Below are positions 41,627 to 63,122 of a DNA stretch of 64,000 bases, piece by piece. Source of the DNA: an uncultured Paracoccaceae bacterium (GTDB lineage: Bacteria > Pseudomonadota > Alphaproteobacteria > Rhodobacterales > Rhodobacteraceae). Numbering within the stretch: the first letter of the stretch is position 1; each line of letters starts with the position of its first letter. The stretch spans positions 1-64,000 of the forward strand of contig CANLQO010000004.1 of NCBI GenBank assembly GCA_947493335.1. The letters run 5' to 3'. A program made the translations under genes and the position numbers. The notes under the pieces are model-generated. The model saw only the letters and a list, made by a program, of their open reading frames with translations, did not search any database and had not been told where the DNA came from.

Positions 41627-41655
41627 CTTTCTTTCCAACGACAGGGAAACACGCA

Positions 41656-42990: not shown

Positions 42991-43010
42991 AAACAACGCA
43001 ACCCACCAAA

Positions 43011-46182: not shown

Positions 46183-47696
46183 TGCCAGGCTTCTGGCAGG
46201 GCGGCACGCCGCTCTGCCATGAAGTGGTGCAGGTCGCTTTCGACAGACGGATCAAGCGGCAGTGGCGCATGGCGTTCCAGCACCTGCGGCCAGAGGGTTG
46301 CCGCGCGTTCCTCGGCCGTTTGCGCGCCCATTTCCTCCCATGTTTCAAACGGCCCCGGCTCCGGCACGTCACCGGCGAAATTTGCGGTCGCGAAATGCGC
46401 GAGCGTATGGGCTGTGGACAGGAAATTCTGCCCCGGTCCGGCCTCTGAATAGGAGGCGCGCGAGAAGGCATCGGGCGAGGTATCAACCCCGCCTAACATC
46501 TTGAGGATCGCGCCACAGGCATCGAGATCGAGCATGAATTTCTCATACCCCATGGTCAGCCCACCTTCGAGCCAGCCCGCGGCATGCCAGACCTGATGGG
46601 TGCCGGACATCACCGTGGCCCACATCGCCGCCACGCTTTCGGCCATGGCCTGTGCATCGGCTGAATTGGCACCAGTGATCTGCCCGCCACCGGACCGGCA
46701 GGGCACGCCAAGGCGGCGGGCCAGTTGCGCGAGGATCAGAGTGACCTGATTGGCCTCTGGCGTGCCGAAGGTCAGCGCGCCGGATTTGAGGCTCATGGTG
46801 TTGTGAAAGCTGCCGTAAACCACCGGGCAGCCGGGGCGCACAAGCTGGGTCAGCGCGATACCGGCAAGGATTTCGGCGTGGGTCTGGGCGGCCATGGCGG
46901 CGGGGGTCAGCGGCCCCATGGCACCGCCAAAGATGGCAGGAGAGATGCAGACACATTGCCCCGCCTCGGCATAGAGCCGCAGGGCCGAGGACATCACACC
47001 GTCATAGGTCAGTGGAGAATTCACATTGATATTGGCCTGAATGACGGCCGCGTCATCCATCTGATTTCCAAAGACAATCCGCGCCAAGGCGAGGCTATCA
47101 GCGGCTCGGTCAGGAGCTGTCACCGCGCCCATGAAGGGTTTGGAGGACCAGCGCAGGTGGGCATAGACCATATCAAGATGACGGGTCGAGACGGGGATAT
47201 CAGTGGGTTCCACAACCGTCCCGCCAGAGTGATGCAGCCATGGGGAAGCATCGGACAGGCGCACGAAATTCTCAAAATCCCGCTGGGTCGCGTAACGTCG
47301 CCCGGCATGGATATCCGTCACAAAAGGCGAGCCATAGCCGGGCATCAGCACAAGGTGATCGCCGCCCAGCGTGACGGACTGCGCCGGGTTCCGGGCGTGC
47401 AGGGTAAAGGTTGCAGGGGCGGTGCGGCACAGGTCCTGCGCAAGCCCCGGCGGAAAGGTGACATGGCCGTCTGTGACCCGGGCCCCTGCCCCGTCAAGAA
47501 GTGCCAGCGCCTTTGGATCGTCGAGCAGATCAATCCCGATCTCGGACAGGATCCAATCCGCCTGCCTCTCAATCGCAGCCAGATCTTCATCAGGCAGGAT
47601 ATCATAGGCTGGAATGCGCCGCTGGAACGGCCCGCCGTTGACTACCTGCGCGCCCGCGCCGTCGTTCAATCTTGCCTGTCTGCCGCGTCGTGCCAT
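46179..47696 (-). CDS. MttB/MtgB-family corrinoid-type methyltransferase, no pyrrolysine
   Basis: 505 residues, uninterrupted by an in-frame TAG, so it belongs to the non-pyrrolysine branch of the trimethylamine methyltransferase family. Typical segments are [36 protein letters not shown] and [20 protein letters not shown]. Members of this branch demethylate glycine betaine, proline betaine or similar quaternary amines to a corrinoid protein. No corrinoid protein gene is in the window. It lies 54 bases downstream of the truncated haemoglobin gene and converges on tmm. Confidence 0.85.
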
Positions 47697-47750: not shown

Positions 47751-48164
47751 TCAGGGCAGACGGGTGCCGGTGTCTTCCCAATCGGGGACGTCATTGACTA
47801 GGATCAGAGCCACCCGCCGCAGCACGGCGCGCAGCTTGTCGATATGCGGGCCAGCGTGGCCCTCCTCGGTCAAGGCGCGATCCATGCAGGTCAGCCAGTT
47901 TTCCGCATCTTCCAGACGGATCGGGACATGCGCGTGAATTTCTTTGACATCCATATGGCCGTGCCGTTCGCGGTAATGCTGTCGCCCACCCATGAAGCCC
48001 GACATAAAGTCCACCTGCTCGACACGGGCATGGGCGATGCCATGGCCACGGCCATGGAGGCGGCGCAGGTTTGCACCCTCTGGCAAAGTCTCTACCAGAT
48101 CATAAAAGGTGTTCACCAACGCGTGCAGCGCGTCGTCGCCTCCGATATCGTCAAGCATGGTCAT
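47751..48164 (-). CDS. Group II truncated haemoglobin
   Basis: 137 residues. The 2-on-2 globin pattern of group II is visible: FYDLVETLPEGANLRRLH, DFMSGFMGGRQHYRERHGH, then IHAHVPI with the probable proximal His77, and WLTCMDRAL with the G8 tryptophan at 90. These proteins bind O2 or NO and are linked to oxygen supply or detoxification. It lies just upstream of the mttB-type gene and just after the tdm unit, all on one strand. Supplying or scavenging oxygen for the monooxygenase pathway is only a guess. Confidence 0.85.
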   Translation of the reverse strand: MTMLDDIGGDDALHALVNTFYDLVETLPEGANLRRLHGRGHGIAHARVEQVDFMSGFMGGRQHYRERHGHMDVKEIHAHVPIRLEDAENWLTCMDRALTEEGHAGPHIDKLRAVLRRVALILVNDVPDWEDTGTRLP

Positions 48165-48631: not shown

Positions 48632-48997
48632 CTATTCGGCCACCAGTTGCTGGCCTTCGATCACCGCAAAGACGGTCGGCGGGGTCGTTTTGCTGACCCA
48701 GAAGAAGTCGCCAGCATATTCCATCACGAACCAGCCTTCCCAGTCGGCATCATTGGGCCAGATGGATTGGTATTCGCCATCCTGCACCCGCCATTCGCCT
48801 AAGGTCGAACGCGCGCCTTCTTGCGCATAGATGGTGCTGCCGTCAGGGGCAAAATACTGCCGGTATTGCGCACCTTCCCAGACACCGACCGCCGTATTCC
48901 CGGATAAAAGTGCAGTAATTTCATACTCTTGCAGCTTGACCGACTGTGCGGCCACGGGCGTCGCGGTCAACAGAAGGGCAAGAGCAAACCGGATCAT
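48632..48997 (-). CDS. Exported protein of unknown function, overlaps tdm
   Basis: 121 residues. A signal peptide (MIRFALALLLTATPVAAQ) is followed by a small beta-rich mature protein with several Trp and Tyr residues (YRQYFAPDGSTIYAQEG, EYQSIWPNDADWEGWFV). No family is recognised. Its ATG overlaps the tdm stop (ATGA), a sign of translational coupling, which is odd because Tdm itself is cytosolic. Confidence 0.8.
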   Translation of the reverse strand: MIRFALALLLTATPVAAQSVKLQEYEITALLSGNTAVGVWEGAQYRQYFAPDGSTIYAQEGARSTLGEWRVQDGEYQSIWPNDADWEGWFVMEYAGDFFWVSKTTPPTVFAVIEGQQLVAE

Positions 48998-51363
48998 GAG
49001 CGGGGCTTTTCCTTGGTCGGATCATAGGCGGCGAGGGTGTCGCGGATGGTGGCGGGCAGGCGTTTTTGGTGGCCATCAAGTTTGCCGATTTCAAGCGCTG
49101 TGCCCGCATCAGCATGGGCCACATCGACACGCGCCATTGCGATGTTGCGGCCCAGCAGCGGCGAGCGCATCGACGAACAGACCTCGCCCACCTGCGCGCG
49201 GCCCACATGCACGCAATCACCATGGCCGACCTCGACCTGGCTGTCGATATCAAGGCCCACAAGCTTGCGCATCGGGTTCTCTTTCCGGCGGATCAGGGCG
49301 TCGCGTCCGATGAAGTCGTCGGGCTTGGATTTGAGCGGCACGGTAAAGCCGATGCCCGCTTCAAACGGGTCGGTTTGATCGCTGAAATCGTAGCCTGCAA
49401 AGATCAGACCCGCCTCAATCCGGACCATGTCGAGTGCCTCGAGGCCCATCGGCTTGAGGCCATGGGGTTCGCCCGCCTCCCAGATGGCGTCGAATACTTC
49501 TGTGCAATCCTTGGGGTGGCACATGACCTCATACCCCAGTTCACCGGTATAGCCGGTGCGGCTGATGACAAAGGGTGTGCCCGCCTCATTGCGCAGGCGG
49601 GCCGGTGTGAAGCGGAACCAGTTCAGCTGATCAAATTCGGGGTTGTGGGGGGCCGTCCAGACCAGATCGCGCAGGATGTCCCGGGACTTCGGCCCTTGGA
49701 CGGCGACGTTGTGCAGCTGGTCGGTAGAGGACCGGATCAGCACCTTGAGACCCAGCTTTTCGGCCTGTTCCCGCAGCCATTCGCCGCCGTAATCCGACCC
49801 ACCGATCCAGCGGAAATTGTCGCGCGCCAGCCGGAACACCGTGCCATCGTCAATCATGCCGCCGTGTTCGTAGCACATGGCGGTATAGACCACGCCGCCG
49901 ATGGGCAGGGTTTTCATGTTGCGGGTAAAGACGTACTGGCACAAAGCTTCGGCATCGGGACCGTTGATTTCGAACTTGCGCAGCGGTGAAAGGTCCATGA
50001 CCACCGCGTCCTGACGGCAGGCGTGGTATTCTGCGATCGGGCCTGCATCGGCCATGCAATTGGGCAGCCAATAGCCGTTGTATTCGACAAAGTTGCGCGT
50101 GTGCTTGGCAAAGCTTGCGTGGAAGCCGGTTTCTTTGGTCATCTTTGCCTCTGAATCTGGGGTCGCGCGGATGGCGATGGCCTTTTTGAAGGTGTTTTCG
50201 CCGCTATAGGTGCGGACGTGGATGTCGGTGGGGTTCCAGCCGTTGGCGGCGGTGGTGTCGTCGGGGCAGGCGCTGGAGACACAGACGATATCGGTGAGCG
50301 CGCGCAGCAACACATAGTCACCGGGGCGGGACCAGGGCTCGTCGGTGTACATGACGCCGTGGTCGTCGATGCCGGTGTTGAAGAAGAAGTTGATCGCCAT
50401 CCAGCCGGGACGCGGCGAGACGTTGAATTGCGCCAGTGCGGTGTTGAAATTGTCCGAGCAGTTGGGGTGCCCCGGATAGCCGATGTCGTCGTAGTATTTC
50501 GCTGCACAGGCCATCGCAAAGGCGTCGTGACGGCCGCAGGTATCCTGCACCACCTCAACCAGCGGCACGAGTTCCTGATCGTAGTACTTCGCATGCAGCC
50601 CCGGCATCGGGTAGGCATGGCCCATCAGGGTGCGGGTGGTGGTCACGTCGAGCGCATGTTCGATGCCTTTATCGAGCTTGCGCGCGCTGAAACATTCGAA
50701 ATCAGTGCACTGACGGCCATCCACGTCGATGATCTGGATGTAGTCACCAGCTTTGACGAAATAAGCCTCTGCCGTTTGGGTATGCACCCGAATGTCGGCC
50801 AGCGGATCGGCCAGGGGATCAGGCAGTTCAAACCGCACATGCGGCTTGAGCTTGCTGCGTTGGATCATCACGGTCAGGGGCGTTGCGGTATCCTGCGCCT
50901 CGAGGTCCATGATGCCACCGGGGGCGGCGATGATGACCACACCATCACGGGTGGCGCGAAAGCTTTCCTCTGTCTTGGCGGGGGTCGTCGCCTCAAAAAG
51001 GTGGATGGCATCGGGGGAGGCAAGATCGATGTTCCGGGCCTCTATCCCCATGCGCAGACCCTGCAATGCGCCGTCAGAGCCGCTCAGGAGCGCCTGTAGG
51101 CCCGTTGCGGGGCCCCGCCCTGCCCCACCCATCAAAGCGGCCTCTACGGCGCCCTGTGCGTCCGCTGCGATGATCTCGCACCGCTGACCACCTTCGGTAT
51201 TGATGACCGTCAGGCTGTCGCCCGTCGCCACTGGGATCAGAATGGCACCCGCGCCGGGCACCTCGTAGCGTTCGGTTCCGGGCGGCAAGGAGAAGACGGC
51301 GGGTTGAATGATCTTGCTGGGTTTCGGAGGCCCGGCGGGGACATTGGGATAGTGATCCAGCAT
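48994..51363 (-). CDS. tdm: Trimethylamine N-oxide demethylase
   Basis: 789 residues, AAGGAGG ribosome site. Tdm (aldolase) splits TMAO into dimethylamine and formaldehyde, the latter being trapped on tetrahydrofolate. The N-terminal ~400 residues are DUF1989 (metal site); the C-terminal ~370 are a GcvT/aminomethyltransferase fold (GYTGELGYEVMCHP, GLKPMGLEALDMVRIEAGL). Asp221, Cys286, Cys302 and Cys366 have exactly the spacing of the metal ligands reported for Methylocella silvestris Tdm (Asp198, Cys263, Cys279, Cys343, from memory). Two exported proteins are coupled downstream; folD lies upstream. Confidence 0.93.
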   Translation of the reverse strand: MLDHYPNVPAGPPKPSKIIQPAVFSLPPGTERYEVPGAGAILIPVATGDSLTVINTEGGQRCEIIAADAQGAVEAALMGGAGRGPATGLQALLSGSDGALQGLRMGIEARNIDLASPDAIHLFEATTPAKTEESFRATRDGVVIIAAPGGIMDLEAQDTATPLTVMIQRSKLKPHVRFELPDPLADPLADIRVHTQTAEAYFVKAGDYIQIIDVDGRQCTDFECFSARKLDKGIEHALDVTTTRTLMGHAYPMPGLHAKYYDQELVPLVEVVQDTCGRHDAFAMACAAKYYDDIGYPGHPNCSDNFNTALAQFNVSPRPGWMAINFFFNTGIDDHGVMYTDEPWSRPGDYVLLRALTDIVCVSSACPDDTTAANGWNPTDIHVRTYSGENTFKKAIAIRATPDSEAKMTKETGFHASFAKHTRNFVEYNGYWLPNCMADAGPIAEYHACRQDAVVMDLSPLRKFEINGPDAEALCQYVFTRNMKTLPIGGVVYTAMCYEHGGMIDDGTVFRLARDNFRWIGGSDYGGEWLREQAEKLGLKVLIRSSTDQLHNVAVQGPKSRDILRDLVWTAPHNPEFDQLNWFRFTPARLRNEAGTPFVISRTGYTGELGYEVMCHPKDCTEVFDAIWEAGEPHGLKPMGLEALDMVRIEAGLIFAGYDFSDQTDPFEAGIGFTVPLKSKPDDFIGRDALIRRKENPMRKLVGLDIDSQVEVGHGDCVHVGRAQVGEVCSSMRSPLLGRNIAMARVDVAHADAGTALEIGKLDGHQKRLPATIRDTLAAYDPTKEKPRS

Positions 51364-51465: not shown

Positions 51466-52332
51466 CTAAAGCCAGCCTGCCGCGATCTGCCGTTCATGTG
51501 CAACCTTGGCGTTGCGCATCAACATGGCAACGGTCACAGGACCGACACCGCCCGGGACCGGTGTGATCCAGCCCGCGAGTTCCTTCACCGCATCCGTGTC
51601 AACGTCGCCGACGATCTTGATGCCCTCTTCAGCCTCGATCTGGTTGATGCCGATGTCGATCACCGCAGCGCCGGGTTTGATCATATCCGGACCGATCAGA
51701 TGCGCCTTGCCAACGGCCACAACAACAACGTCGGCCCGGCGCGAATGCATCGCAACAGAACGGGTCATGTGATGGCAGACGGTGACGGTGCAGCCTTCGG
51801 CCATGAGCATCATTGCGGCGGGTTTGCCGACAATCTCTGAATGGCCGATCATCACCACTTCGAGCCCTTGCATCGGCAGGCCGGTTTCCCGGATCAATTC
51901 GACACTTGCAGCCGCCGTACAGGGGGCAAGGGCCACGTCGGAATAAACGATGTTGCCGATGGAGGCGGGGTTCATTCCCTCGACGTCCTTGAGTGGATGG
52001 ATGGCCGATTGCAATGACCGGACATTGATGTGATCCGGCACCGGGCGCTGTAGGATGATGCCAAGAATATCGGGCGCATCGTTCATCGCCAAAATGCGCG
52101 CCTTGCAGTCATCTTGCGTGATGTCAGCCGGCCAGACTTCTTGCGTGAAAGGCAACCCGGCTGCTTCGGCACCACGGGCCTGATTGCGGACGTAAACGGC
52201 GGCCGCTGGCGTGTCGCCGATCAGGATCGAGACAAGCCGCGGCATGTCGGGATGGCGGTCGGTATATTGCCGCACTTCTGCGATGATCCGGGTCTTGACC
52301 GCGACCCCGTTGAGCAACCGATTGTCCTGCAT
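51466..52332 (-). CDS. folD: Divergent FolD-type methylene-THF dehydrogenase
   Basis: 288 residues from the ATG at 52332 (AGGAGG upstream). The fold is FolD: N-terminal THF domain and Rossmann domain with VVMIGHSEIVGKPAAMML and VAVGKAHLIGPDMIKPGA, then ITPVPGGVGPVTVAMLM. FolD interconverts methylene-, methenyl- and formyl-THF. Here several active-site motifs differ: YVRNQ has Gln where the catalytic lysine (YxxxK) stands, LQRPVP replaces VQLPLP, KDVEG replaces KDVDG and PCTA replaces PCTP. Cyclohydrolase activity may be lost. Position next to tdm suggests oxidation of the C1 unit from TMAO. Confidence 0.88.
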   Translation of the reverse strand: MQDNRLLNGVAVKTRIIAEVRQYTDRHPDMPRLVSILIGDTPAAAVYVRNQARGAEAAGLPFTQEVWPADITQDDCKARILAMNDAPDILGIILQRPVPDHINVRSLQSAIHPLKDVEGMNPASIGNIVYSDVALAPCTAAASVELIRETGLPMQGLEVVMIGHSEIVGKPAAMMLMAEGCTVTVCHHMTRSVAMHSRRADVVVVAVGKAHLIGPDMIKPGAAVIDIGINQIEAEEGIKIVGDVDTDAVKELAGWITPVPGGVGPVTVAMLMRNAKVAHERQIAAGWL

Positions 52333-52453
52333 CTGACCCTCCTGCGATGAGGCTACAAGACGCCGAAACCCGAAGGTGACGCAACGGGTGAGCGCGACAG
52401 GACACGCGGCATTTGCGGCAAAGTTAACGGCCCCCGAACGGTGAAAAGCCGAA

Positions 52454-52486
52454 TGCACAACCAATACACAATCCGTACACAACCCA
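52454..52486. repeat. Three 11-base tandem repeats between folD and repC
   Basis: Reading the minus strand, TTGTGTA, TTGTGTA and TTGTGCA occur with an exact 11-base period (units at 52454-52464, 52465-52475 and 52476-52486). One-turn spacing puts all three on one face of the helix, as for a dimeric or oligomeric regulator. The array lies 122-154 bases before the folD start and 87 bases beyond the repC stop. Confidence 0.6.
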
Positions 52487-52572: not shown

Positions 52573-53679
52573 TTAAGCATTTGTTTTGTAACGTATTTTT
52601 TGGTTGTCAGCTGACAAATCGCCCCATTCGCGGGTCTTTTGCAGCAGGGGACCCGGATCAAAGCCCCCTGCCCCGCAATTTCGCGCGAGGTGACGCAGGT
52701 ATCCGCCCGGATTGCTGTAGCGGTCCAGACTTTCAACGATGCATGCCACGCTGATTGCGGCGGCGACAGGCCCCATGCGCTGCGAGGCCTCTGCCCAGAC
52801 CGGAGGGTCAATGCCGATCATCTGGGACAAACGGCTGGCAACGCGGTGCAAGTCTGACCAGTTGCGCAGAGGTTGTGGGAAAAAGAGCGTCACTTCTTTG
52901 CAGGTATCCAGCACCTCTGCCAGCGTCACGGTCGGGTTTTCTTTTTTTTGAGATCCGGTTTCGCGAGCGGGCGCGGCATCAGAGTTATATTTAAGTTTTA
53001 CCTGTATGTGCCGCCCATTCTGGCTGTCACTGGCGCTCAGTTCCGGAGGAGATGGGGGCGTGATTTGGGCGCTGAGCGCGTCATGCATCGCGGTCAAAAG
53101 TGCTGCTATAGGCTTGCGGCGCAGCAGACGGCGGGCGTCTTCGGTCAGGGGTGTTGCGCCTGATTTGGCAAGCACGCGCTGGCGTAGTTCGGCCACCTCG
53201 GCCTGCAGTGCGCGCAAAGTGTCGGCCTCTGCCCTGGCATCGGCGGCGGCTGCGTTGATCTGTCCGGCCAGATGGGCCAGCGGTGAAAGGTCAAAGCCAA
53301 AGGCAACCTCTGCCCCCTGCCCCAGATTGCGGGCGTAGCGTTTGCCATTGGGGCTGTTGCGGCGGGCGATCAGTCCGAGCTGTGTCAGCCGTGCCAGATG
53401 GCGGCGCAATGTGCTTTCGGGCATGCCGTTCAGCCGATGCGACAGCGTGGCATTGGAGGGAAAAACCGTGTTGCCGCGCCGGTCGGTGCCGATCACGCGG
53501 CCCGGTAGAAAACTGACCAGTGATTTGAGCACGCCAAGGGTTGTGTGCGACACCTCAAACCGTTCAGCGGCGGTGGTCAGCTGGCCGACGATCTGCCATT
53601 TGTCGCAGAGGGTGTCATCGGGCGACGGCTGACAAGCGGATACCGGCCGCCCAAACGCTGTTTGGGACGTGTGTTTCAT
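52573..53679 (-). CDS. repC: Plasmid replication initiator RepC
   Basis: 368 residues. RepC is the initiator of alphaproteobacterial repABC replicons and carries the origin inside its own coding region. The N-terminal winged-helix part is clear (GVLKSLVSFLPGR, FPSNATLSHRLNGMPESTLR, LARLTQLGLIARRNSPNGKRY). The middle (about 140-260) is variable and the C-terminal part (DLHRVASRLSQMIGID, SNPGGYLRHLARN) is conserved. Length is near the family norm (about 370-440), and there is no frameshift. It is the last gene of repABC, separated from repB by 166 bases that hold a candidate counter-transcribed RNA. Confidence 0.95.
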   Translation of the reverse strand: MKHTSQTAFGRPVSACQPSPDDTLCDKWQIVGQLTTAAERFEVSHTTLGVLKSLVSFLPGRVIGTDRRGNTVFPSNATLSHRLNGMPESTLRRHLARLTQLGLIARRNSPNGKRYARNLGQGAEVAFGFDLSPLAHLAGQINAAAADARAEADTLRALQAEVAELRQRVLAKSGATPLTEDARRLLRRKPIAALLTAMHDALSAQITPPSPPELSASDSQNGRHIQVKLKYNSDAAPARETGSQKKENPTVTLAEVLDTCKEVTLFFPQPLRNWSDLHRVASRLSQMIGIDPPVWAEASQRMGPVAAAISVACIVESLDRYSNPGGYLRHLARNCGAGGFDPGPLLQKTREWGDLSADNQKIRYKTNA

Positions 53680-53765
53680 GTGATTTCACGACAGACAACA
53701 GATCCCCGGCCCTGCACCGCAATGCAGAGTTGACAGAGGAGTCACCGTGCGGGTATTTCTCGAGG

Positions 53766-53815
53766 TGCTAGAACGAGAATGGCCTTCGAGGGTAACGCCC
53801 TTGGGGGCTTTTCTT
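53766..53815 (+). ncRNA. Candidate counter-transcribed RNA (inc-alpha) of repABC
   Basis: In the repB-repC gap, opposite to the rep genes, TTGACA (53730-53735) and TATTTC (53754-53759) are 18 bases apart. Transcription would start near 53766. GCCC/GGGC (53797-53808) followed by TTTTCTTTTT (53809-53818) would end it, giving about 50 bases, the usual size of ctRNAs that repress RepC synthesis. A stem TTCTCG/CGAGAA (53757-53762 with 53774-53779) may form in the repBC mRNA. The ends are estimates. Confidence 0.55.
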
Positions 53816-53845
53816 TTTGGTGTTGTCCCTGCTCGCGTGCCTCCT

Positions 53846-54805
53846 TTAGTTGGTTTCGGGGTCTTCGGATCGCGTGGCCAGCCAGCGATCATGAAGCTCT
53901 TGCAAAGCGGTGTCGGCGTTCTGGGCCAGCCATTGGTCAAACCCGTCCGCGCTGCGCGCCTGAATGGTCAGGGTGACGCCCTTGGCGGTTTGGCGGATGT
54001 CGCCGATCACCTGACCGTCAGGGCGATGCAGGGGCATGGGCCGTGGTGTGGTGGCCTTGGGCGCGGCGCGGCTGGCGCGGGCGAACACAGCCTCGAACCG
54101 TTGGTCTGACGTCCCGGTGAGCGCCTCTGGCGTCTTGAGAAAGGCGTTGACCCGGCTGCGGGCGGCCTTGTCATCGAGCATCTTGGCCAGCGCCAGCCAG
54201 CGGTCACGGCCGATGCCGGGGGCGGCGCCGATCTGGCGCAGCATCGGCAGGGGAAAGGCCTGCCCCACTTTCAGCATCCGCGAGACCATGGGCTGGTCGA
54301 TGGAGAGGGCGGCGGCGATCGTGTCGCGGTCGTAGTCCGTCGCGGCAAGCTGGGCTGCAAAGGAGGCTTTTTCGATAAAGCTGAGGTCCTGGCGGGCGGT
54401 GTTTTCCTGACCCTGCGCCAACACCAGAGCGTGATCGTCGAGCTGGCGGATCATCGCCTTGACCGGCTGGCCAAGGTCACGCAGAGCGGCCAGACGGCGG
54501 CGACCATAGACGATTTCATAGCGACCGGGCTGTTCGGGGTGGGGCCGCAGCAGGACAGGGACCTGCTGGCCATAGGTCTTGAGGCTGTCGCGAAGCTGGG
54601 CAAGCGCGGCCTTGTCGTGGTCAAGACGGTCCTCGACCCCGGCATCGTCAATCAATGCGGCGTCGATGTCCTGCACCGCGCTTTCCTGAAGCTTGGACAG
54701 CGAGGATTGCAGCGCGCCGACGGCACCACGGGGGGCGGGTTTGTCAGCCGTCCGCGGGCGGCGGGTCTGCCCGATATCACCTGACAGGATGCCTTTGCGT
54801 GCCAT
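53846..54805 (-). CDS. repB: Plasmid partitioning protein RepB (ParB family)
   Basis: 319 residues from the ATG at 54805 (MARKGILSGDIG); the frame is open 15 codons upstream. RepB binds centromere-like parS sites and works with RepA. The ParB nuclease-like core (VPVLLRPHPEQPGRYEIVYG, RRRLAALRDLGQPVKA) and the helix-turn-helix (FAAQLAATDYDRDTIAAALS, then QPMVSRMLKVG) are intact. One base separates it from repA, so repAB are translationally coupled. Confidence 0.94.
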   Translation of the reverse strand: MARKGILSGDIGQTRRPRTADKPAPRGAVGALQSSLSKLQESAVQDIDAALIDDAGVEDRLDHDKAALAQLRDSLKTYGQQVPVLLRPHPEQPGRYEIVYGRRRLAALRDLGQPVKAMIRQLDDHALVLAQGQENTARQDLSFIEKASFAAQLAATDYDRDTIAAALSIDQPMVSRMLKVGQAFPLPMLRQIGAAPGIGRDRWLALAKMLDDKAARSRVNAFLKTPEALTGTSDQRFEAVFARASRAAPKATTPRPMPLHRPDGQVIGDIRQTAKGVTLTIQARSADGFDQWLAQNADTALQELHDRWLATRSEDPETN

Positions 54806-54806
54806 C

Positions 54807-55982
54807 TCAGCGCCCCCATGCCTGTTGGAGAAGGGTTTCGACCTCTTCATTCACCTGATTGAGCGAATCCATCGCGCGGTCATAGGTGGCGCGGTGGAAT
54901 TGGCCACGCTCGACCTCGTAAATGGTTTGCTGGGTCAGCCCAGCGTCGGAAATCGCGGTGGATTTCAGCATCGGGGCGACCATGACCTCATCCCCGAACA
55001 ATTGCCGCAGGAAGGCCACGACCTGCTGTTGCGGGCCGTCGTTGGGCTCATAGCGGTTGATGAGGAAGCGCAGGAAGTCGAATTCCATGTTTGCGCCTGC
55101 GTTAGATACGACATCGAGGAGATCGGCGCTCATTTGCAGGAACTGCGACATGGAGGCCACGTCGAGCATATTAGGCACGATGGTGATGAAGACACCGGTG
55201 GAAGCACAAAGCGCGGCCATGGTCAGATAGCCGAGCTGCGGGGGGCAATCGAAGATAATGACGTCGTAGTTGGCCTCTACCTCCTGCAGGGCGGCGGCCA
55301 TGCGGGCGTAAAAAGGCGGCTGAATGTTGCTGCGCAGGGCTTGAGGGGTTTCATGCTCGAATTCCTGCAGCAAGAGCCCGCCGGGGGCGAGGTCAATCCC
55401 GGTGAAAAAGGTCTTTTGCACGATGGCCGAGAAGGGCAGGGGGTCATCATAGCGGATAGCGTCGTAGATCGTGCCGCTTTCGATGAAATCAATCTCTGGC
55501 CGGTAGCCAAAGAGGGTAGTGAGCGAGGCCTGCGGGTCGATGTCGACGCAGAGCACGCGATATCCCTTGAGCGCCAGACGGTGGGCGGTGTGGACGGCCG
55601 AGGTTGTCTTGCCGGAGCCGCCCTTGAAGTTGAGGAACGACAGCACCTGCACCTTGTCGCCAGGCTTGCGCCCGCGCTGATAGGTGCCGGGCACCTTCGC
55701 GGATTCTTCGAGGACGCCGCGGATCGCCTGGATGTCATGGGCGGAATAGAGTCTGCGTCCCCCCGAAGTAGACTCTACATCGAGCACTTTGCCATCGAAG
55801 TGAAGTTTGCGCAGAAAGCTGGTCGAAATGCCCAGATGCTCGGCCGCTTCACTGGCAGAGAACAGGCGCAGTTCCTTTTGCGCATCAGGCGAGAACACCT
55901 TGTGCATGTGAGCATCAAGGGCTGCTGCGAGGTCTTCCGCATTCTCGCGAATGCGCGTATTGATGTTCAGAAGGGATGTCAT
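54807..55982 (-). CDS. repA: Plasmid partitioning ATPase RepA (ParA family)
   Basis: 391 residues, the usual RepA length. An N-terminal helix-turn-helix/MerR-like segment (ASEAAEHLGISTSFLRKLHF) lies at about 43-80. The ATPase has a deviant Walker A FKGGSGKTTS near 118, DIDPQASLT and the Walker B VIIFDCPP. RepA segregates plasmid copies and represses the repABC promoter. It is the first gene of the operon; the control region with direct repeats is upstream at 55983-56172. Confidence 0.95.
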   Translation of the reverse strand: MTSLLNINTRIRENAEDLAAALDAHMHKVFSPDAQKELRLFSASEAAEHLGISTSFLRKLHFDGKVLDVESTSGGRRLYSAHDIQAIRGVLEESAKVPGTYQRGRKPGDKVQVLSFLNFKGGSGKTTSAVHTAHRLALKGYRVLCVDIDPQASLTTLFGYRPEIDFIESGTIYDAIRYDDPLPFSAIVQKTFFTGIDLAPGGLLLQEFEHETPQALRSNIQPPFYARMAAALQEVEANYDVIIFDCPPQLGYLTMAALCASTGVFITIVPNMLDVASMSQFLQMSADLLDVVSNAGANMEFDFLRFLINRYEPNDGPQQQVVAFLRQLFGDEVMVAPMLKSTAISDAGLTQQTIYEVERGQFHRATYDRAMDSLNQVNEEVETLLQQAWGR

Positions 55983-56056
55983 CCCGGTCCTGTCCTGCTA
56001 CCGCTTTATAGTAACGCTTTATTCCGTCAGCGCCTTTGTTAGCGTTTCTAAGCGCT

Positions 56057-56081
56057 TGCAACCGATTCATGCAACCGATTC
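56057..56081. repeat. Twin 12-base direct repeats upstream of repA
   Basis: TGCAACCGATTC occurs at 56057-56068 and again at 56070-56081, a 13-base period. The copies lie 75-99 bases before the repA start. Closer in, CGCTTTAT is also repeated (about 56002-56024). They may be RepA/RepB binding sites or part of the partition centre; the canonical 16-base alphaproteobacterial parS was not recognised. Confidence 0.55.
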
Positions 56082-56172
56082 TTCCCGATCGCCACGCGCG
56101 GGCGGAATGCTTTGTTGAAAAAGTAAGGAATTGATGCTAAATGTAATGCGATTAGTCCAAAGGTACATCAAA

Positions 56173-56409
56173 ATGCAGGAATCCGCGATCACAGCAAAGG
56201 GTCAGACCACCTTGCCCAAGGCGGTGCGGGTGGCATTGGGCGTCGGGCCGGGGGATCGGGTGCGGTATCTGATCGGCGAAAACGGAGAAGTGCGAATCCT
56301 GCGGGCCCGGCCCGTGGCACGATTGGCGGGCCTGCTGAAAGAAGGCCGGGCGGTCGTGACGCTGGACGAGATGGACGCGGCAATCGGTGCAGGCGCGACT
56401 GAGGAATGA
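56173..56409 (+). CDS. vapB: AbrB/SpoVT-type antitoxin, VapB-like
   Basis: 78 residues from the ATG at 56173; an open frame extends 14 codons further up. The swapped-hairpin DNA-binding domain is clear: SAITAKGQTTLPKAVRVALG, then VGPGDRVRYLI. The C-terminal tail would wrap the toxin. It overlaps vapC by 4 bases (ATGA), the usual antitoxin-toxin coupling. The complex normally represses its own promoter. The pair is divergent from repA and probably stabilises the replicon. Confidence 0.87.
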   Translation: MQESAITAKGQTTLPKAVRVALGVGPGDRVRYLIGENGEVRILRARPVARLAGLLKEGRAVVTLDEMDAAIGAGATEE

Positions 56410-56801
56410 TCGCGCTTGATACCAATGTGGTGGTCCGGTTTCTGGTGCAGGATGACCCGGAGCAGGCACAGGCGGCCGCACAGCTTTTTGACAGCCTGAC
56501 CGAAGACAACCCCGCGCTGTTGGTGCGCGAGGTGGTGATGGAAACGGTTTGGGTGCTGGAGCGGGCCTATAAAGTGGACCGCGCAGGCATCGCCACGGCG
56601 CTGGATGGCCTGCTGGAAAGCCGCGAGATCGAGATGGAGGACGCCGAGATCATCGCGCAGGCCATAGAGCGTTATCGACGCGGCGGACCGGGGTTTGCCG
56701 ACCATCTGATTGCCTTGCAGGCAAAAGGGCAGGGGGCCAGCACGCTGGTCACCTTTGATGCGCGCGCGGCCAAACTGCCAGAGGCGACGCTGCTGGGTTA
56801 A
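56406..56801 (+). CDS. vapC: PIN-domain ribonuclease toxin, VapC-like
   Basis: 131 residues. The PIN-domain acidic residues are present: MIALDTNV (Asp5), VVMETVWVL (Glu), GFADHLIAL (Asp) and LVTFDARA (Asp). VapC toxins cleave tRNA or rRNA and are neutralised by the partner antitoxin. All catalytic positions are intact, so the toxin looks active. Its TAA stop overlaps the stop of the convergent gene at 56798 within TTAA. Confidence 0.87.
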   Translation: MIALDTNVVVRFLVQDDPEQAQAAAQLFDSLTEDNPALLVREVVMETVWVLERAYKVDRAGIATALDGLLESREIEMEDAEIIAQAIERYRRGGPGFADHLIALQAKGQGASTLVTFDARAAKLPEATLLG

Positions 56802-57361
56802 GCGACCGAACGGGCGGCGTTGACCAGCGCATGATGCAGCGATCCGGCAGAAGCGCGGGGGCCAAGGATGCGGATGTGATCATCGGCGGCGCGCCGGATC
56901 ACGAAACAGCCCAGCTGATGGATCATGGTGCGCTGCGCGTCACCCGCGACCATCCGCCGGATCGGCACGGCGCAAAGCAATTCGCACATATCGGGCATGG
57001 CGGCGCCGGTCACATCAAAAGCGACCCATGCGCCGGTTTGTTCGGTGACGGAAGCGGTATCGCCGAAGCGGGCCTTGAGCTGATCGGCAAGGTCCTCGTG
57101 CGTGTCGCCGGGTGCGCCGATCATCCATTGATCTGGCCCCATCCAGAATCCGGCCTCGGGGTCGTGCAACACGGCACGGCCGGGCAGGGGGGTTTCGCCC
57201 AGAAGGGCCTTGAGACCTTTGGCCACGGCCGCTTCTGACCCCAGACGCGCAGCGACGGAGGCGAGCGCCAGGCCGGGATGTTCTGCGATGGTCACGCTGC
57301 CGATGGTATCGACCTGCGGATCAGCGCCGCCAAGGGCGTGGGTGGGTAAAAGATCATGCAC
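56798..57361 (-). CDS. mgdD: Sarcosine oxidase/N-methylglutamate dehydrogenase gamma subunit
   Basis: 187 residues from a GTG at 57361 that overlaps the alpha-subunit stop by 8 bases; a longer frame inside the alpha gene is rejected. The protein resembles SoxG (GcvT-like small subunit): EAGFWMGPDQWMIGAPGDTH, TGAWVAFDVTGAAMPDMCEL, and QLGCFVIRRAADDHIRILG. It completes a four-gene leftward operon beta-delta-alpha-gamma. Whether the enzyme oxidises sarcosine (soxBDAG) or N-methylglutamate (mgdABCD) is judged from context; the second is favoured. Confidence 0.8.
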   Translation of the reverse strand: MHDLLPTHALGGADPQVDTIGSVTIAEHPGLALASVAARLGSEAAVAKGLKALLGETPLPGRAVLHDPEAGFWMGPDQWMIGAPGDTHEDLADQLKARFGDTASVTEQTGAWVAFDVTGAAMPDMCELLCAVPIRRMVAGDAQRTMIHQLGCFVIRRAADDHIRILGPRASAGSLHHALVNAARSVA

Positions 57362-60293
57362 GGAGGCGTTCCCCCTCTGGGTCAACAAAATGGGCGCTGA
57401 CGATTTCGACCTTGGTGGTGACACCCGTGAGCGGGCTGACGAGGCGCATCTGCTCGCCCACGCGGTCTGAGCCATTCTTGAGGAAACCAAGCGCTATGTG
57501 ACAGCCCAAGACGGGCGAATAACAAGCCGAGGTCGCATAGCCCTGATCGTGGGCGGCATCGACGGGGCCGTTGGCGTTCATCAGATGCGCGCCTGCTGGC
57601 ACCTTGTCGGCGGGGTTGACGGGCTTGATGCCCACCTGCCGCAGATCGCCATCGGCATTCAGGCCGGGGCGTTCCGACAGGGTGGAGCCGATGCTGTCCT
57701 TTTTCTTGGACACCATGCGTCCCATGCCGAGGTTTTGTGCGGTGGTGGTGCCATTGAGCTCGTTACCCGCAGCATGGCCCTTTTCGATGCGCATGACGCC
57801 GAGCGCCTCGGTGCCATAGGGGGTGATGTCGAACTCTTCCCCGGCCTGCATGATCCGGCGCATCAAAGCGTCGCCATAGGTCGTCGGCACGGCGATTTCG
57901 TAAGCCAGTTCACCCGAGAATGAGATGCGGAAGAGACGTGCGCGCAAGCCACCGCAGACGGTGATATTGGCGCAGGCCATGAAGGGGAACGCCTCGTTCG
58001 AGATGTCCTGATCGACGATTTTTTCCAGCACTTTCCGACTGTTAGGACCGGCGACGGCGTATTGGGCCCAAGCCTCTGTCGTGGAAATCAGCTGTACGTC
58101 CATGTCGGGGAAGAGGCACTGACGCACGAATTCCATGTGGCGATAGACGGGCAGGGCGTTGGCGGTGGTGGTGGTGACGACGAAATGATCCTCTGCCAGC
58201 CGGGCGGCGGTGCCGTCGTCCATGGCGATGCCGTCTTCGCGCAGCATCAACCCGTAGCGGGTCTTGCCCACGGCGAGTTTGGCAAAGCCGTTGCAGTAGA
58301 TCTTGTTGAGGAAATCGGCCGCATCCGCGCCTTGCACGTCAACCTTGCCGAGCGTGGTCACGTCACAGACGCCGACCGAGCCACGGGTGGCCAGAACCTC
58401 GCGATCGACGCTTTCGCGCCAGTGGGTTTCACCGGGGCGGGGGAACCATTGGGCGCGGAGCCAATTGCCGACCTCGACAAAGACGGCACCCTGTTCTTCG
58501 GCCCATGCATGGCTGGGGGTCAGGCGCTTGGGGTGGAAGTCTTGTCCGCGATGGCGGCCACCGAAGGCGCCGATGGCGACGGGCGTGTAGGGCGGGCGGA
58601 AGATGGTGGTGCCAACCTCTGGGATCGCTTTACCGGCGAGTTCGGCCATGATCGCAAGGCCGCCCATGTTGGAGGTCTTGCCCTGATCGGTGGCCATGCC
58701 AAGGGTGGTGTAGCGCTTGAGGTGTTCGACCGAGCGGAACCCTTCCTGATGGCTGAGTTTGACGTCCTTGACGGTCACGTCGTTCTGCTGATCGAGCCAG
58801 GCGCGAATGCAGCCTTCGACGTACCAGAAGGGGGTGACGTTGACGGGAGCATCTTCGGTGTCGGGCAGGGCGGGCAGGCGACCCTTGAGGCCAAGGGCGG
58901 CTTTTGCGGCCTGCGCGCCGCCGCGCAGGGCACCGGCGGTGGACATGTCGCCCGCCGCAGCCCCTGAAACGGTCATCCCGGCGGGAAGGTTTTCACCGGG
59001 GACAAAGGCGGCGAGCGCGTCGTTCCATGTGGGGCGTCCCCGCTGGTGGCAGGTGAGGTGCACGTTGGGATTCCAGCCGCCCGAAAGACCCAGCGCGCCG
59101 CATTCCAGCGTGCGGGTGGTGCCGTCGGCCATGCGCACCTCGGCAAAGGTCAGGCCAAGGCGACCCTTGGTGTCGATGACCTGCGCGCCGGGCAGCACCT
59201 CATAATCGGTATTGCGGGGGGCATCGGGGCGGGTATCGACCACGGCGCTGATCTTGAGGCCCTTGGCATGAAGATCAGCGGCGGTGCGGTGCCCGTCGTC
59301 GTTGTTGGTGAAGATCGCAACGCGGCGGTCGACGGCGACGCCAAAGCGGTTGGCGTAGGTGCGCAAGGCGCTGCCCAGCATCACACCGGGGCGGTCGTTG
59401 TTGTCAAACGCGATGGGGCGTTCGAGCGCGCCCGCGGCGAGTACCGTCTTTTGGGTGTAGATCCGCCAGAGGATCTGGCGCGGTTTGCCATCATCAGGGG
59501 TGTGCACGTGGTCGCTGACCCGTTCGACAGCACCATAGATGCCATGGTCAAAGGCCCCGATGACGGTGGTGCGCGGCATAAGGCGGACGTTGGGCAGGGT
59601 GGCCAGTTCAGCAACGGCAGCGGCGGCCCAATCGGCCCCGGTGTCGTCGCCAATGGTGAGCGTTTCGCTGTTGAGCCGTCCGCCCATGCGGAAATCTTCG
59701 TCGGCAAGGATCACATCGGCGCCGCTGCGCCCGGCGGTGAGCGCGGCCATGAGGCCAGCGGGCCCTGCGCCGATAATTAGGAGGTCACAGTGCAGGAACC
59801 CCTTGTCATAGACATCGGGGTCATCCTTGAGCGACAGCGAACCGAGGCCTGCGGCACGGCGGATGATCGGCTCGTACAGCTTTTCCCAAAGGGGCGCGGG
59901 CCACATGAAGGTTTTGTAGTAAAACCCGGCGGTCAGAAAGGTCGAAAGGCGGTCGTTGATTGCCAGTAGGTCGAATTTCAGTGAGCCCATGCGGTTCTGG
60001 CTATGGGCCAGCAGGCCATCGAAGAGTTCGGCGGTGGTGGCGCGGGTGTTGGGCTCTTTCCGGGCGCCGCCCCGCAGTTCAACGAGGGCGTTGGGTTCTT
60101 CTGACCCGGCGGTCAGGGGACCACGCGGGCGGTGGTATTTGAACGATCGGCCCATGAGGCGCACGCCATTGGCCAAAAGTGCCGAGGCCAGCGTGTCGCC
60201 GGGGTGGCCGGTGTAGGATTTGCCATCAAAGCTGAAACGCAGGGTCTTGGCGCGGTCGATCTGACCGCCTGCGATGCGGTTGTCTTTGGTCAT
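57354..60293 (-). CDS. mgdC: Sarcosine oxidase/N-methylglutamate dehydrogenase alpha subunit
   Basis: 979 residues. The N-terminal 2Fe-2S-like fold without cysteines (SFDGKSYTGHPGDTLASALL) leads into a dinucleotide site LLIIGAGPAGLMAALTAGRS near residue 175 and an NAD/FAD domain. From about residue 600 follows a GcvT-type THF-binding domain (GVCDVTTLGKVDVQGADAAD, SFSGELAYEIAVP, GTEALGVMRIEKGH). The THF domain captures the formaldehyde released by N-demethylation as methylene-THF. It overlaps the delta gene by 4 bases and the gamma gene by 8. Confidence 0.87.
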   Translation of the reverse strand: MTKDNRIAGGQIDRAKTLRFSFDGKSYTGHPGDTLASALLANGVRLMGRSFKYHRPRGPLTAGSEEPNALVELRGGARKEPNTRATTAELFDGLLAHSQNRMGSLKFDLLAINDRLSTFLTAGFYYKTFMWPAPLWEKLYEPIIRRAAGLGSLSLKDDPDVYDKGFLHCDLLIIGAGPAGLMAALTAGRSGADVILADEDFRMGGRLNSETLTIGDDTGADWAAAAVAELATLPNVRLMPRTTVIGAFDHGIYGAVERVSDHVHTPDDGKPRQILWRIYTQKTVLAAGALERPIAFDNNDRPGVMLGSALRTYANRFGVAVDRRVAIFTNNDDGHRTAADLHAKGLKISAVVDTRPDAPRNTDYEVLPGAQVIDTKGRLGLTFAEVRMADGTTRTLECGALGLSGGWNPNVHLTCHQRGRPTWNDALAAFVPGENLPAGMTVSGAAAGDMSTAGALRGGAQAAKAALGLKGRLPALPDTEDAPVNVTPFWYVEGCIRAWLDQQNDVTVKDVKLSHQEGFRSVEHLKRYTTLGMATDQGKTSNMGGLAIMAELAGKAIPEVGTTIFRPPYTPVAIGAFGGRHRGQDFHPKRLTPSHAWAEEQGAVFVEVGNWLRAQWFPRPGETHWRESVDREVLATRGSVGVCDVTTLGKVDVQGADAADFLNKIYCNGFAKLAVGKTRYGLMLREDGIAMDDGTAARLAEDHFVVTTTTANALPVYRHMEFVRQCLFPDMDVQLISTTEAWAQYAVAGPNSRKVLEKIVDQDISNEAFPFMACANITVCGGLRARLFRISFSGELAYEIAVPTTYGDALMRRIMQAGEEFDITPYGTEALGVMRIEKGHAAGNELNGTTTAQNLGMGRMVSKKKDSIGSTLSERPGLNADGDLRQVGIKPVNPADKVPAGAHLMNANGPVDAAHDQGYATSACYSPVLGCHIALGFLKNGSDRVGEQMRLVSPLTGVTTKVEIVSAHFVDPEGERLRA

Positions 60294-60577
60294 TTGCTGC
60301 GCCCCCGTGCGCGGGCCACATCGCGGGCGAGTTCGACGGATTTAATCTCGTGTGTGACGGTGTTGCGAGTTACGACCAGCCAAGAGCGGTCGCCTGCTTC
60401 GTGAAACCAAAGCTCGCGGTGCCAGCCAGCGGGGTTGTCACGCAGATAGCCGTATTCATAGAAATCCTGTGCGGCCGTTTCAGACTGCCAGTCGGGGCGG
60501 TCGATCAGGGCGGCGTCACCGAGATAGGTGAATTCGGCAGAATCGCGGGGTCCAAGGAGGGGGTGATTGATAATCAT
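60290..60577 (-). CDS. mgdB: Sarcosine oxidase/N-methylglutamate dehydrogenase delta subunit lacking Zn cysteines
   Basis: 95 residues. SoxD-type pattern: GPRDSAEFTYLGDA, YLRDNPAGWHRELWFHEAG, RNTVTHEIKSV. In sarcosine oxidase delta a CxxC near the N-terminus plus His and Cys bind zinc. Here the N-terminal position reads NHPLLGPRD and the later Cys position reads AGDRSW; the protein contains no cysteine at all. This suggests a zinc-free delta subunit and separates it from SoxD. It is 10 bases downstream of the beta gene. Confidence 0.83.
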   Translation of the reverse strand: MIINHPLLGPRDSAEFTYLGDAALIDRPDWQSETAAQDFYEYGYLRDNPAGWHRELWFHEAGDRSWLVVTRNTVTHEIKSVELARDVARARGRSK

Positions 60578-60587
60578 CGTGCGCGCC

Positions 60588-61838
60588 TCAATGCAGGTTG
60601 GGCTGATTGCCCATCCCTTTTTCGTCGATCATCAGGCCCTTCTGGAACCGGTCAAACCGGTAGGCCGTGGCCGTGGGGTGAGGGTTGCCGGTGGCCAGCA
60701 GGTGCGCATAGGCGAAGCCTGACGCGGGCGTGGCCTTGAAGCCGCCGTAGCACCAGCCACCGTTGAAATAGAGCCCGTCAATATGGGTCTGGTCGATGAT
60801 CGGCGAGCCGTCCATCGACATGTCCATGATGCCGCCCCACATCCGCAGAAGCCGCGCGCGTCCAAGCATGGGGAAAATCGCCATCGCGCCTTCGCAGACA
60901 TCTTCAACCACCGGCAGGTTGCCGCGTTGGGCGTAGGAGTTGTAGCCGTCGAGATCGCCACCAAAGACCAGCCCGCCCTTGTCGGACTGGCTGCAATAGA
61001 AGTGACCCGCGCCAAAGGTGATGACACCGGGCAGGACGGGTTTGAGCCCTTCGGACACGAAGGCCTGCAGTACGTGGCTTTCGATCGGCAGGCGCATCCC
61101 GGCCTTGGCCATCAGGCGGCCCGAGTTGCCTGCGACCGCACAGCCGACCTTGCCCGCACCGATGAACCCGCGCGAGGTCTCGACCCCGACGCAACGCCCG
61201 CCCTCCATGCGGAAGCCGGTGACCTCGCAGTTCTGGATAATATCGACGCCGCGGCTATCGGCACCACGCGCATAGCCCCAGGCGACCGCGTCGTGACGCA
61301 CCGTGCCGCCACGATGCTGCGCCAGACCGCCCTTGATCGGGAAGCGGGCGTCGTGAGTATTGAGGAACGGATAGCGCTTTTTGATCTCTTCGGTGGTGAG
61401 CATGTTGGCGTCAGCGCCATTGAGGATCATCGCGTTGCCGCGCCGGACAAAGGCGTCGCGTTGCGGGTCGGAATGAATGAGGTTGAGGATGCCACGCTGG
61501 CTAACCATGGCGTTGTAGTTAAAGTCCTGCTCTAACCCTTCCCACAGCTTGAGCGAGAATTCGTAGAAGGGTTCATTGCCATCAAGCAGATAGTTCGAGC
61601 GGATGATCGTGGTGTTGCGCCCGACGTTGCCGCCACCAATCCAGCCTTTTTCGATGACCGCGACTTTATGCTGCCCAAATTCCTTGGCGAGATAATATGC
61701 GGTCGCCAGCCCGTGCCCACCGCCGCCGATGATCACGATATCGTAATGCGACGCCGGGTCGGGATCACGCCATGCCGGTGTCCAACCCTTGTGGCCTGTC
61801 AAAGCCTCTTTGATGACGCGAAAGCCTGAATATCGCAT
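60588..61838 (-). CDS. mgdA: Sarcosine oxidase/N-methylglutamate dehydrogenase beta subunit
   Basis: 416 residues from the ATG at 61838 (AAGGGGA upstream); the frame is open 77 codons further up. This is the catalytic flavin subunit of the DAO family: YDIVIIGGGGHGLATAYYLA at about 32-51, GWIGGGNVGRNTTIIRSNYL, and RGGTVRHDAVAWGYARGAD near the covalent flavin site. It oxidises the N-methyl amine to an imine. Start sequence MRYSGFRVIKEALTGHKGW is typical of SoxB/MgdA. It heads the operon and is divergent from tmoX across a palindrome. Confidence 0.87.
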   Translation of the reverse strand: MRYSGFRVIKEALTGHKGWTPAWRDPDPASHYDIVIIGGGGHGLATAYYLAKEFGQHKVAVIEKGWIGGGNVGRNTTIIRSNYLLDGNEPFYEFSLKLWEGLEQDFNYNAMVSQRGILNLIHSDPQRDAFVRRGNAMILNGADANMLTTEEIKKRYPFLNTHDARFPIKGGLAQHRGGTVRHDAVAWGYARGADSRGVDIIQNCEVTGFRMEGGRCVGVETSRGFIGAGKVGCAVAGNSGRLMAKAGMRLPIESHVLQAFVSEGLKPVLPGVITFGAGHFYCSQSDKGGLVFGGDLDGYNSYAQRGNLPVVEDVCEGAMAIFPMLGRARLLRMWGGIMDMSMDGSPIIDQTHIDGLYFNGGWCYGGFKATPASGFAYAHLLATGNPHPTATAYRFDRFQKGLMIDEKGMGNQPNLH

Positions 61839-61974
61839 ACGATTCCCCTTTGCCCCACTCTGATAAGCTGGCGGTTCAAATGTCCTTGCGAAACCGGACA
61901 CGGAAGTCTGCGTTCGCGACATCGCACAAGATTTGAGCAAGGCGCTTTCGGTACTCACAAGAAAAAAACTTGAT

Positions 61975-61993
61975 TGGCAGGAAAATCCTGCCA
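61975..61993. promoter_or_regulatory. Palindromic operator candidate between mgd operon and tmoX
   Basis: TGGCAGGA (61975-61982), AAA, TCCTGCCA (61986-61993): a perfect 8-3-8 inverted repeat. It lies 137 bases before mgdA and 117 before tmoX in the 271-base divergent region. Its symmetry fits a dimeric regulator serving one or both directions. Confidence 0.6.
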
Positions 61994-62091
61994 CACTCAC
62001 ACTTGGTTTGAGGGGATAGGGACGTTGGCGCAGACCTGTGCACATCCATTCCCGGCAATGGCCAAACAAAGACCGAGGAATTTCGGCTTAA

Positions 62092-63048
<957 letters not shown>

Positions 63049-63073
63049 ACCACGCCACAAAGTTCTAAATTTG

Positions 63074-63098
63074 CCCCGTCCGGCCTTGTCGGGCGGGG
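63074..63098 (+). promoter_or_regulatory. Stem-loop between tmoX and its ATPase gene
   Basis: CCCCGTCCG (63074-63082) pairs with CGGGCGGGG (63090-63098, one G-U) around 7 bases. No T-tract follows directly. As after the TRAP binding-protein gene, it may stabilise the upstream message and keep binding protein in excess over ATPase and permease. Confidence 0.6.
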
Positions 63099-63122
63099 AC
63101 CTTTATCAATAGGCTTCTGTTT

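Follow-up and report, generated by a model that had tools for sequence, protein, structure and literature searches.

How does a complete repABC plasmid replication module come to lie on the same DNA as genes for ribosomal proteins and RNA polymerase? The question is raised by a 64,000-nucleotide stretch from an uncultured Paracoccaceae bacterium, referred to here as the window, which comprises positions 1-64000 of contig C4 (222,172 bp) in a draft genome of 4,051,146 bp in 19 contigs (G000), so that window and contig coordinates coincide. Besides repA, repB and repC, this contig carries fusA, rpoC, rpoB and rplA, recognised through NCBIfam, and rpsL, rpsG, rplK and tuf, recognised by eye, with the rep genes about 26 kb from rpoB; in these respects our results agree with an earlier note on the same DNA, which proposed either that a repABC plasmid had integrated and stayed intact or that essential genes lie on a repABC-type replicon. 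We found that the module, a toxin-antitoxin pair and a set of methylated-amine genes are bracketed by two copies of an exact repeat, which delimit a unit of 48,383 bp. This unit is, with a probability that we put at roughly 0.8, a circular methylated-amine plasmid of the RepABC-8 type that the contig draws in a single-crossover relation with the chromosome.

The repeat, here called R, consists of 4,509 identical bp at C4 38483-42991 (R1) and 86866-91374 (R2), in direct orientation and with an offset of 48,383. It was found through a DNA search in the genus, as a second match in the own genome, and its second copy lies beyond the window. R reads as the mgsA-mgsB-mgsC-gmaS operon of the N-methylglutamate pathway: from its context the gmaS product would be gamma-glutamylmethylamide synthetase, with pathway names following the accessible text of PMC13390433, and mgsA to mgsC, for which NCBIfam matches were weak or missing, were named from annotated homologues and context. 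On its left edge R is extended by no identical base, and on its right edge identity ends at the gmaS stop codon, after which 39 of the next 50 alignment columns match before the alignment ends. Because identity stops at that codon and is followed by a diverged tail, the copies appear to have separate 3' ends and a coding part that was made identical. Separately, a contig from another genus of the family (G007:C9) holds mgsABC-gmaS twice, at 116315-120771 and 196022-200478 (4,457 bp, one mismatch); these copies are direct, about 80 kb apart, and have a tail of 133 columns at 85%, one lying beside dmm and the other beside mgd.

Within the unit, all three rep genes are full length, stand in operon order and score above the cut-offs of their NCBIfam equivalogs (Table 1), as expected from the earlier reading. 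Between repB and repC, on the opposite strand, a hairpin occupies the usual antisense-RNA place of repABC systems (-26.1 kcal/mol, z -4.9; 0 of 200 shuffles equally stable). The candidate counter-transcribed RNA (ctRNA) proposed there corresponds to this hairpin, which carries a T tail and lies on the strand expected of such an RNA, but the Rfam ctRNA_p42d match at this place, at 19 bits and E 2.2, is far below the gathering score of 50. The direct repeats reported upstream of repA are likewise present but short: one of 12 bp at 56057 and 56070, and one of 11 bp (91% alike) at 55999 and 56012. The vapBC pair beside repA was recovered as a PIN-domain toxin and an AbrB/MazE/PrlF-like antitoxin; the predicted DNA-binding antitoxin directly precedes the toxin and the genes overlap, an arrangement consistent with a vapBC-like type II system.

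In the last codons of repC we found a further element, absent from the earlier note, in the form of a parS-like palindrome of 14 nt, TTGTCAGCTGACAA. The module was compared with seven members, namely six public plasmids chosen from 30 listed RepC matches of 2,254 and one locus from a metagenome-assembled genome (MAG); repC relatives in GTDB contigs amounted to one locus, counted once. The 14-mer recurs at the repC end in 6/6 plasmids and just behind repC at the MAG locus. The 16-mer at 52603-52618 is one base from GTTNNNNGCNNNNAAC, the repABC parS consensus in the accessible text of PMC9040568, and in the 16-mers of the plasmids the inner 14 bases are kept and one or both ends differ from that consensus. 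A palindrome match alone is not rare, as three or fewer mismatches occurred in 15 of 100 shuffles of the window; what points to a partition site is its place at the repC end, common to all six plasmids.

Identity to the seven members was 77-85% for RepA, 59-73% for RepB and 43-47% for RepC, with RepC pairs among the members at 41-77%. A literature search with the letters of the palindrome returned no relevant paper, and the group was therefore taken from typed replicons. Three of the six plasmids, pMeth_B221 of Leisingera methylohalidivorans (PMC3910543) and pDSM14862_c of Sulfitobacter indolifex and pDSM109990_b of S. dubius (both PMC9025767), are typed RepABC-8/RepC-8 in the excerpts available of these papers. 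They have the same palindrome, RepA at 78-80% and RepB at 62-64%; they differ in that RepC is only 46-47% identical and that the unit here is drawn on a chromosomal contig. Judged by RepA and RepB identity, the palindrome and these three replicons, the module appears to group with RepABC-8, a placement made by identity and palindrome rather than by a tree, with full comparison to other compatibility groups covering the untyped module of contig C9 only. C9 of the same genome (79,779 bp; repC 45605-46729) is a second repABC replicon, with the palindrome GTTGACAGCTGTCAAC; its ends share 70 bp and it is probably a closed 79.7-kb plasmid.

Two lines of evidence suggest that the unit closes on itself. 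As drawn on C4, R1 lies between tRNA-Gly and RidA-tmm, without amtB upstream, and R2 between dmm-gcvT-amtB and parC, without tmm downstream. Closed at R, the unit has dmm-gcvT-amtB before mgsABC-gmaS and RidA-tmm-globin-tdm-folD after it. We picked the genomes of 12 relatives with strong gmaS matches and read the order of the genes searched over up to 20 kb around gmaS. The order amtB-mgsABC-gmaS-tmm was seen in four (G216, G242, G219 and G269), and the next searched gene after gmaS was tmm, globin or tdm in 8/12; three others (G152, G215, G166) have other genes after gmaS, and in G061 the contig ends.

The second line is nucleotide skew. When mean-subtracted GC skew was summed around the unit as a circle, the minimum fell at 52801, inside repC and 325 bp from its middle, and the maximum at 78249, 52.6% of the circle away. 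The amplitude was reached by 0/5000 and 0/2000 block shuffles (500-bp blocks in the set of 5000) and by none of 165 overlapping segments of equal length taken from C4 91.5-222 kb, 44 of which have an arc of 47-53%. Five repABC replicons served as controls, four public circular plasmids (including two related Sagittula plasmids) and C9, which is probably circular; in these the distance from repC to the minimum was 0.3, 3.2, 3.3, 4.0 and 6.6% of the circle, and the arcs ranged from 30.9 to 62.4%.

The DNA on either side of the unit is chromosomal. Pieces of tuf form both ends of C4 (1-77 and 221708-222172); at the start of C4 tuf adjoins fusA, and contig C6 starts with tuf-rpsJ-rplC-rplD. Of the five congeners compared (G001-G005), G001, G002 and G003 show fusA-tuf-rpsJ-rplC-rplD without a break; G004 and G005 have a contig break inside tuf but keep tuf-rpsJ-rplC-rplD. 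The start of C4 thus appears to belong with C6 and its end, by elimination, with contig C2. Owing to the continuity from fusA through tuf into the S10 genes and to congener synteny, we regard C4 as chromosomal and not as a separate repABC replicon, which contradicts the proposal that essential genes lie on a repABC-type replicon. Over 284 bp, the tuf 3' ends of C4 and C6 are about 5% divergent.

On the left side of R1, a block at 33.6-38.35 kb is shared with 5/5 congeners, where it does not adjoin rpoBC, and the matches end at about 38350. Right of R2, where the comparison covered 91.5-104 and 204-222 kb, the contig largely matches the congeners. G001, G003 and G005 keep both stretches on one contig in the same order, G004 has them on separate contigs, and in G002 their order differs; the matches of the final 2 kb next to tuf (219.4-221.6 kb) lie elsewhere. 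The gene adjoining R2 on the chromosome side is parC (NCBIfam), and in G001 and G002 (single contig) rplK and parC are separated by tRNA-Trp and tuf. R itself has no long DNA match in any of the five congeners (none above 76 bp). As the left block and parC lie apart there, with further rearrangements, the DNA that borders the unit on its two sides is not adjacent and an empty site could not be shown in these genomes. An acyl-CoA synthetase block after rplK (window 33480-33610) lies elsewhere in the congeners, and the nusG/tRNA-Trp stretch, within about 6 kb after rplK in G001, matches contig C1 of G000.

We propose that repABC would be the replication and partition core of a circular plasmid. 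By analogy with the family, RepA and RepB would use the repC-end palindrome for partition, RepC would initiate replication within repC, and the antisense hairpin would damp RepC. Plasmid and chromosome would each own one mgsABC-gmaS operon; a single crossover within the 4.5 kb of identity would join them in the order left flank, R, plasmid, R, parC, and a second would release the circle. Situated between tRNA-Gly and parC and with a diverged 3' end of its own, the R of the chromosome would be an older copy that gene conversion or recombination had made identical. Direct repeats of the putative crossover site do flank the plasmid, as expected of an integrated one. The sequence therefore fits the integrated, intact repABC plasmid that had been suggested, but a free plasmid sharing an identical 4.5-kb operon, missing from that account, fits as well.

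How the contig is to be read depends on the behaviour of the assembly. In an assembly graph, by our reasoning, a plasmid that is integrated and one that is free but has R in common with the chromosome would look alike, and some assemblers write a shared-repeat loop out once. Contigs of G000 stop inside tuf, which implies that the exact 4.5-kb repeat was probably not spanned; data reaching across 4.5 kb are unlikely. At two places where two contigs run into the same sequence (C4 start with C2 near its end; C8 start with C11 end), exactly 77 bases are identical, and other shared contig ends measure 67-169 bp at 97.6-100%. Shared ends of 77 bases are as short-read de Bruijn assemblies leave them. 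Contig C5 contains a 3,190-bp direct repeat with two mismatches (31388-34577 and 48565-51754, 17,177 bp apart), both copies in one contig, and this may be a second loop of the graph. Reads across 50-58 kb would not separate the two states, since the joins of folD with repC and of vapC with mgd lie inside the unit and exist in either. A literature search on a chromosomally integrated plasmid or a short-read artefact returned nothing relevant. We lean slightly towards a dominant state that is free or mixed.

Several points weigh against a plasmid in single-crossover relation with the chromosome. The full order from amtB to tmm was not seen in 8/12 relatives, and p-SCP4 of Ponticoccus has glyA after gmaS. 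The skew test was post hoc, chosen after seeing the data, and gene strand is a confounder; in one control plasmid the arc is just 30.9%, and the skew step at 52.5 kb could come from a join. The chromosome without the unit (tRNA-Gly, R, parC) was seen in no genome compared, and among the matches listed (248 genomes) gmaS and parC never form one match outside G000. A free-plasmid copy of the unit was not found in PLSDB, where the best DNA match covers 30% of 38100-63000 at 79% identity. Finally, the C5 repeat, resolved in one contig, could mean that the assembly had long-range data, and the loop-writing habit of assemblers is general knowledge, not drawn from this assembly.

If the unit is such a plasmid, its state in the cells has to be weighed next. 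We give an even chance to its being a free plasmid only, with C4 a graph loop written once where plasmid and chromosome share R. The likeness of both states in a short-read graph, the breaks inside tuf, the 77-base ends and the repeat copies likewise held together in C5 are consistent with this, as are the skew of a circle and the order, obtained on closing at R, of 4/12 relatives; that loops are walked in this way is, however, general knowledge of assemblers. Somewhat short of even odds stands stable integration in all cells, which would give the chromosome an additional, intact RepABC origin, with its partition site, at 26 kb from rpoBC. C4 is drawn in this way and gap-free, with the 4.5-kb direct repeats flanking the unit as after a single crossover; the Sulfitobacter pontiacus CB2047 integration (PMC13386836) is a precedent and both origins are active in fused Agrobacterium tumefaciens chromosomes (PMC12153318), as far as the available text of these papers goes. 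The resolved 3.2-kb repeat of C5 could also speak for long-range data, but nothing seen spans R, and tuf, a shorter repeat, is unresolved in the same assembly. A more tentative extension, which we think rather unlikely, is that the duplicated mgsABC-gmaS serves as a reversible switch, with a complete, replication-competent RepABC-8 plasmid in the chromosome of at least part of the population, crossing in and out, and gene conversion keeping the operons identical.

It is very unlikely that repABC is instead a decaying relic in an old chromosomal island. We counted departures at positions invariant in six members, for the window and for the seventh member left out, in seven sets. RepA departs more than the left-out member in 7/7 sets (11-15 against 0-10), RepC in 7/7 (9-16 of 89-103 against 1-15) and RepB in 6/7 (6-9 against 0-7). 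Most members have a closer relative in the set, however, which lowers their counts: for RepC, the Sulfitobacter sp. S223 plasmid, which has none, departs at 15 of 103 positions against 16 for the window, the MAG locus at 9 of 97 against 11, and the other members at 1 to 6. The reading frames are full length, and palindrome and ctRNA hairpin are kept. The RepC counts thus seem slightly raised without clear decay, and would be compatible with mild relaxation.

An assembly misjoin within 50-58 kb, at a place other than R, has hardly any probability left: the genome is a draft of 19 contigs, GC skew rises in a step near 52.5 kb, and folD adjoins repC in no relative among those compared, but C4 has no Ns, its self-comparison at E 1e-10 gives R as the only repeat, GC is even across the region (0.59-0.64), and an origin in repC would explain the skew step. 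Equally improbable is a chromid of about 223 kb, formally possible as a circle from C4 through tuf back to C4 with both ends running into tuf, since fusA-tuf-rpsJ-rplC-rplD is unbroken in 3/5 congeners and compatible in 2/5, and congeners match C4 at 92-104 and 204-219 kb. The S10 genes at the start of C6 led us to reject the reading of C4 as a closed repABC chromid of 223 kb.

Table 1. Features of the repABC-bearing unit and its left border in the window (coordinates of C4)
Feature	Position	Strand	Evidence or remark
tRNA-Gly(TCC)	38230..38303	-	Last feature of the congener-shared block left of the unit
Left R copy (R1): mgsA, mgsB, mgsC, gmaS	38483..42991	+	Exact direct repeat
gmaS	41656..42990	+	TIGR03105 (type III glutamate--ammonia ligase), 651 bits, cut-off 470
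RidA-family protein	43047..43466	-	Pfam Ribonuc_L-PSP
tmm, trimethylamine monooxygenase	44830..46182	+	NF058570, 835 bits, cut-off 675
MttB-like trimethylamine methyltransferase family protein	46179..47696	-	222 bits, below TIGR02369 cut-off of 525
Bacterial globin	47751..48164	-	
tdm, trimethylamine N-oxide (TMAO) demethylase	48994..51363	-	NF053776, 1196 bits, cut-off 1100
folD, methylene-tetrahydrofolate dehydrogenase/cyclohydrolase	51466..52482	-	Both Pfam domains; NCBIfam matches shown all below cut-offs; start of the reading frame probably too long
repC, replication initiator, 368 aa	52573..53679	-	NCBIfam equivalog, 253 bits, cut-off 150
parS-like partition palindrome, 14 nt	52604..52617		Last codons of repC
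Candidate antisense ctRNA / terminator hairpin	53770..53822	+	Between repB and repC, opposite strand, T tail
repB, 319 aa from 54805	53846..54805	-	NCBIfam equivalog, 319 bits, cut-off 201.5; longest reading frame starts at 54850
repA, 391 aa	54807..55982	-	NCBIfam equivalog, 566 bits, cut-off 348
AbrB/MazE/PrlF-like antitoxin	56173..56409	+	Upstream of repA; start read from sequence
PIN-domain toxin, VapC-like	56406..56801	+	Domain match; no NCBIfam match
soxB/D/A/G-like operon	56798..62069	-	soxA and soxB above cut-off, soxD and soxG below; read from context as mgd (N-methylglutamate dehydrogenase)
ABC transporter start, TMAO type (tmoX/W/V)	62110..64000	+	Substrate inferred; continues to C4 66136

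Beyond these features, the unit holds a 2-oxoglutarate oxygenase, a homocysteine methyltransferase, a VgrG/DUF2169/PAAR stretch, AraC and XRE-cupin regulators, the dmm genes (HODM-like, DmmA-like and a 198-aa reading frame where p-SCP4 has dmmA), amtB, and a GcvT-like gene named by eye. A pathway for trimethylamine, TMAO, dimethylamine and methylamine is apparently complete (tmm, tdm, dmm, mgsABC-gmaS, mgd, folD, transporter and amtB). In R. pomeroyi the pathway comprises tmm, tdm, dmm, gmaS-mgs and mgd under TmaR and TmoR, according to the accessible text of PMC13390433. The VgrG/DUF2169/PAAR-like stretch spans C4 68290-78610 and includes several proteins without a Pfam match; 1.5 kb of its VgrG DNA matches part of the C9 plasmid at 78% identity. 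A megablast search of 38100-63000 against a phage collection gave no match, and derivation from a phage was rejected on this result.

The locus suggests how a catabolic operon common to plasmid and chromosome may serve as an entry and exit site for a RepABC plasmid in a roseobacter chromosome, and it is an example of how a long identical repeat shared by a free plasmid and the chromosome could lead a short-read draft to place the one inside the other. It would also place an apparently whole pathway from trimethylamine to ammonium on one 48-kb RepABC-8 replicon. Annotated records already show plasmids with methylated-amine genes: plasmids of Ponticoccus alexandrii (p-SCP4), Paracoccus and Falsirhodobacter carry parts of the same pathway, although in their rows only 16-30% of the query is covered, at 76-79% DNA identity. 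p-SCP4 resembles the unit in dmm-gcvT-amtB-mgsABC-gmaS and tdm-folD and differs in the glyA that follows gmaS. The closest RepA (85%) and RepB (73%) among the plasmids compared belong to plasmid unnamed1 of Sulfitobacter sp. S223 (NZ_CP083561.1, 122,748 bp), which has the same palindrome, a sox-like/mgd operon 76% alike at the DNA level and the DUF2169 gene too. This plasmid is, however, 2.5 times larger and has a full type VI secretion system locus, and tmm, tdm, dmm and glnT do not appear in its gene table, although an 88-aa reading frame beside mgd is a tmm-like fragment (67%).

What seems unusual is a catabolic operon as the shared repeat, a point at which no literature search was aimed. 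In S. pontiacus CB2047, a 2026 precedent, a 280-kb plasmid is integrated between rrn copies of about 5.6 kb and confirmed by nanopore reads, according to the available text (PMC13386836). Both cases would have a roseobacter plasmid in the chromosome, long near-identical flanking repeats and toxin-antitoxin genes kept; they differ in that the repeats there are rrn copies backed by nanopore proof, whereas here the repeat is a catabolic operon and integration would be one of two possible states. If integration is true, the present locus would be a natural two-origin chromosome in the family, alongside that of Sulfitobacter and the fusion chromosomes of A. tumefaciens, in which, as the excerpt of PMC12153318 reports, both origins fire and parAB and repABC are essential.

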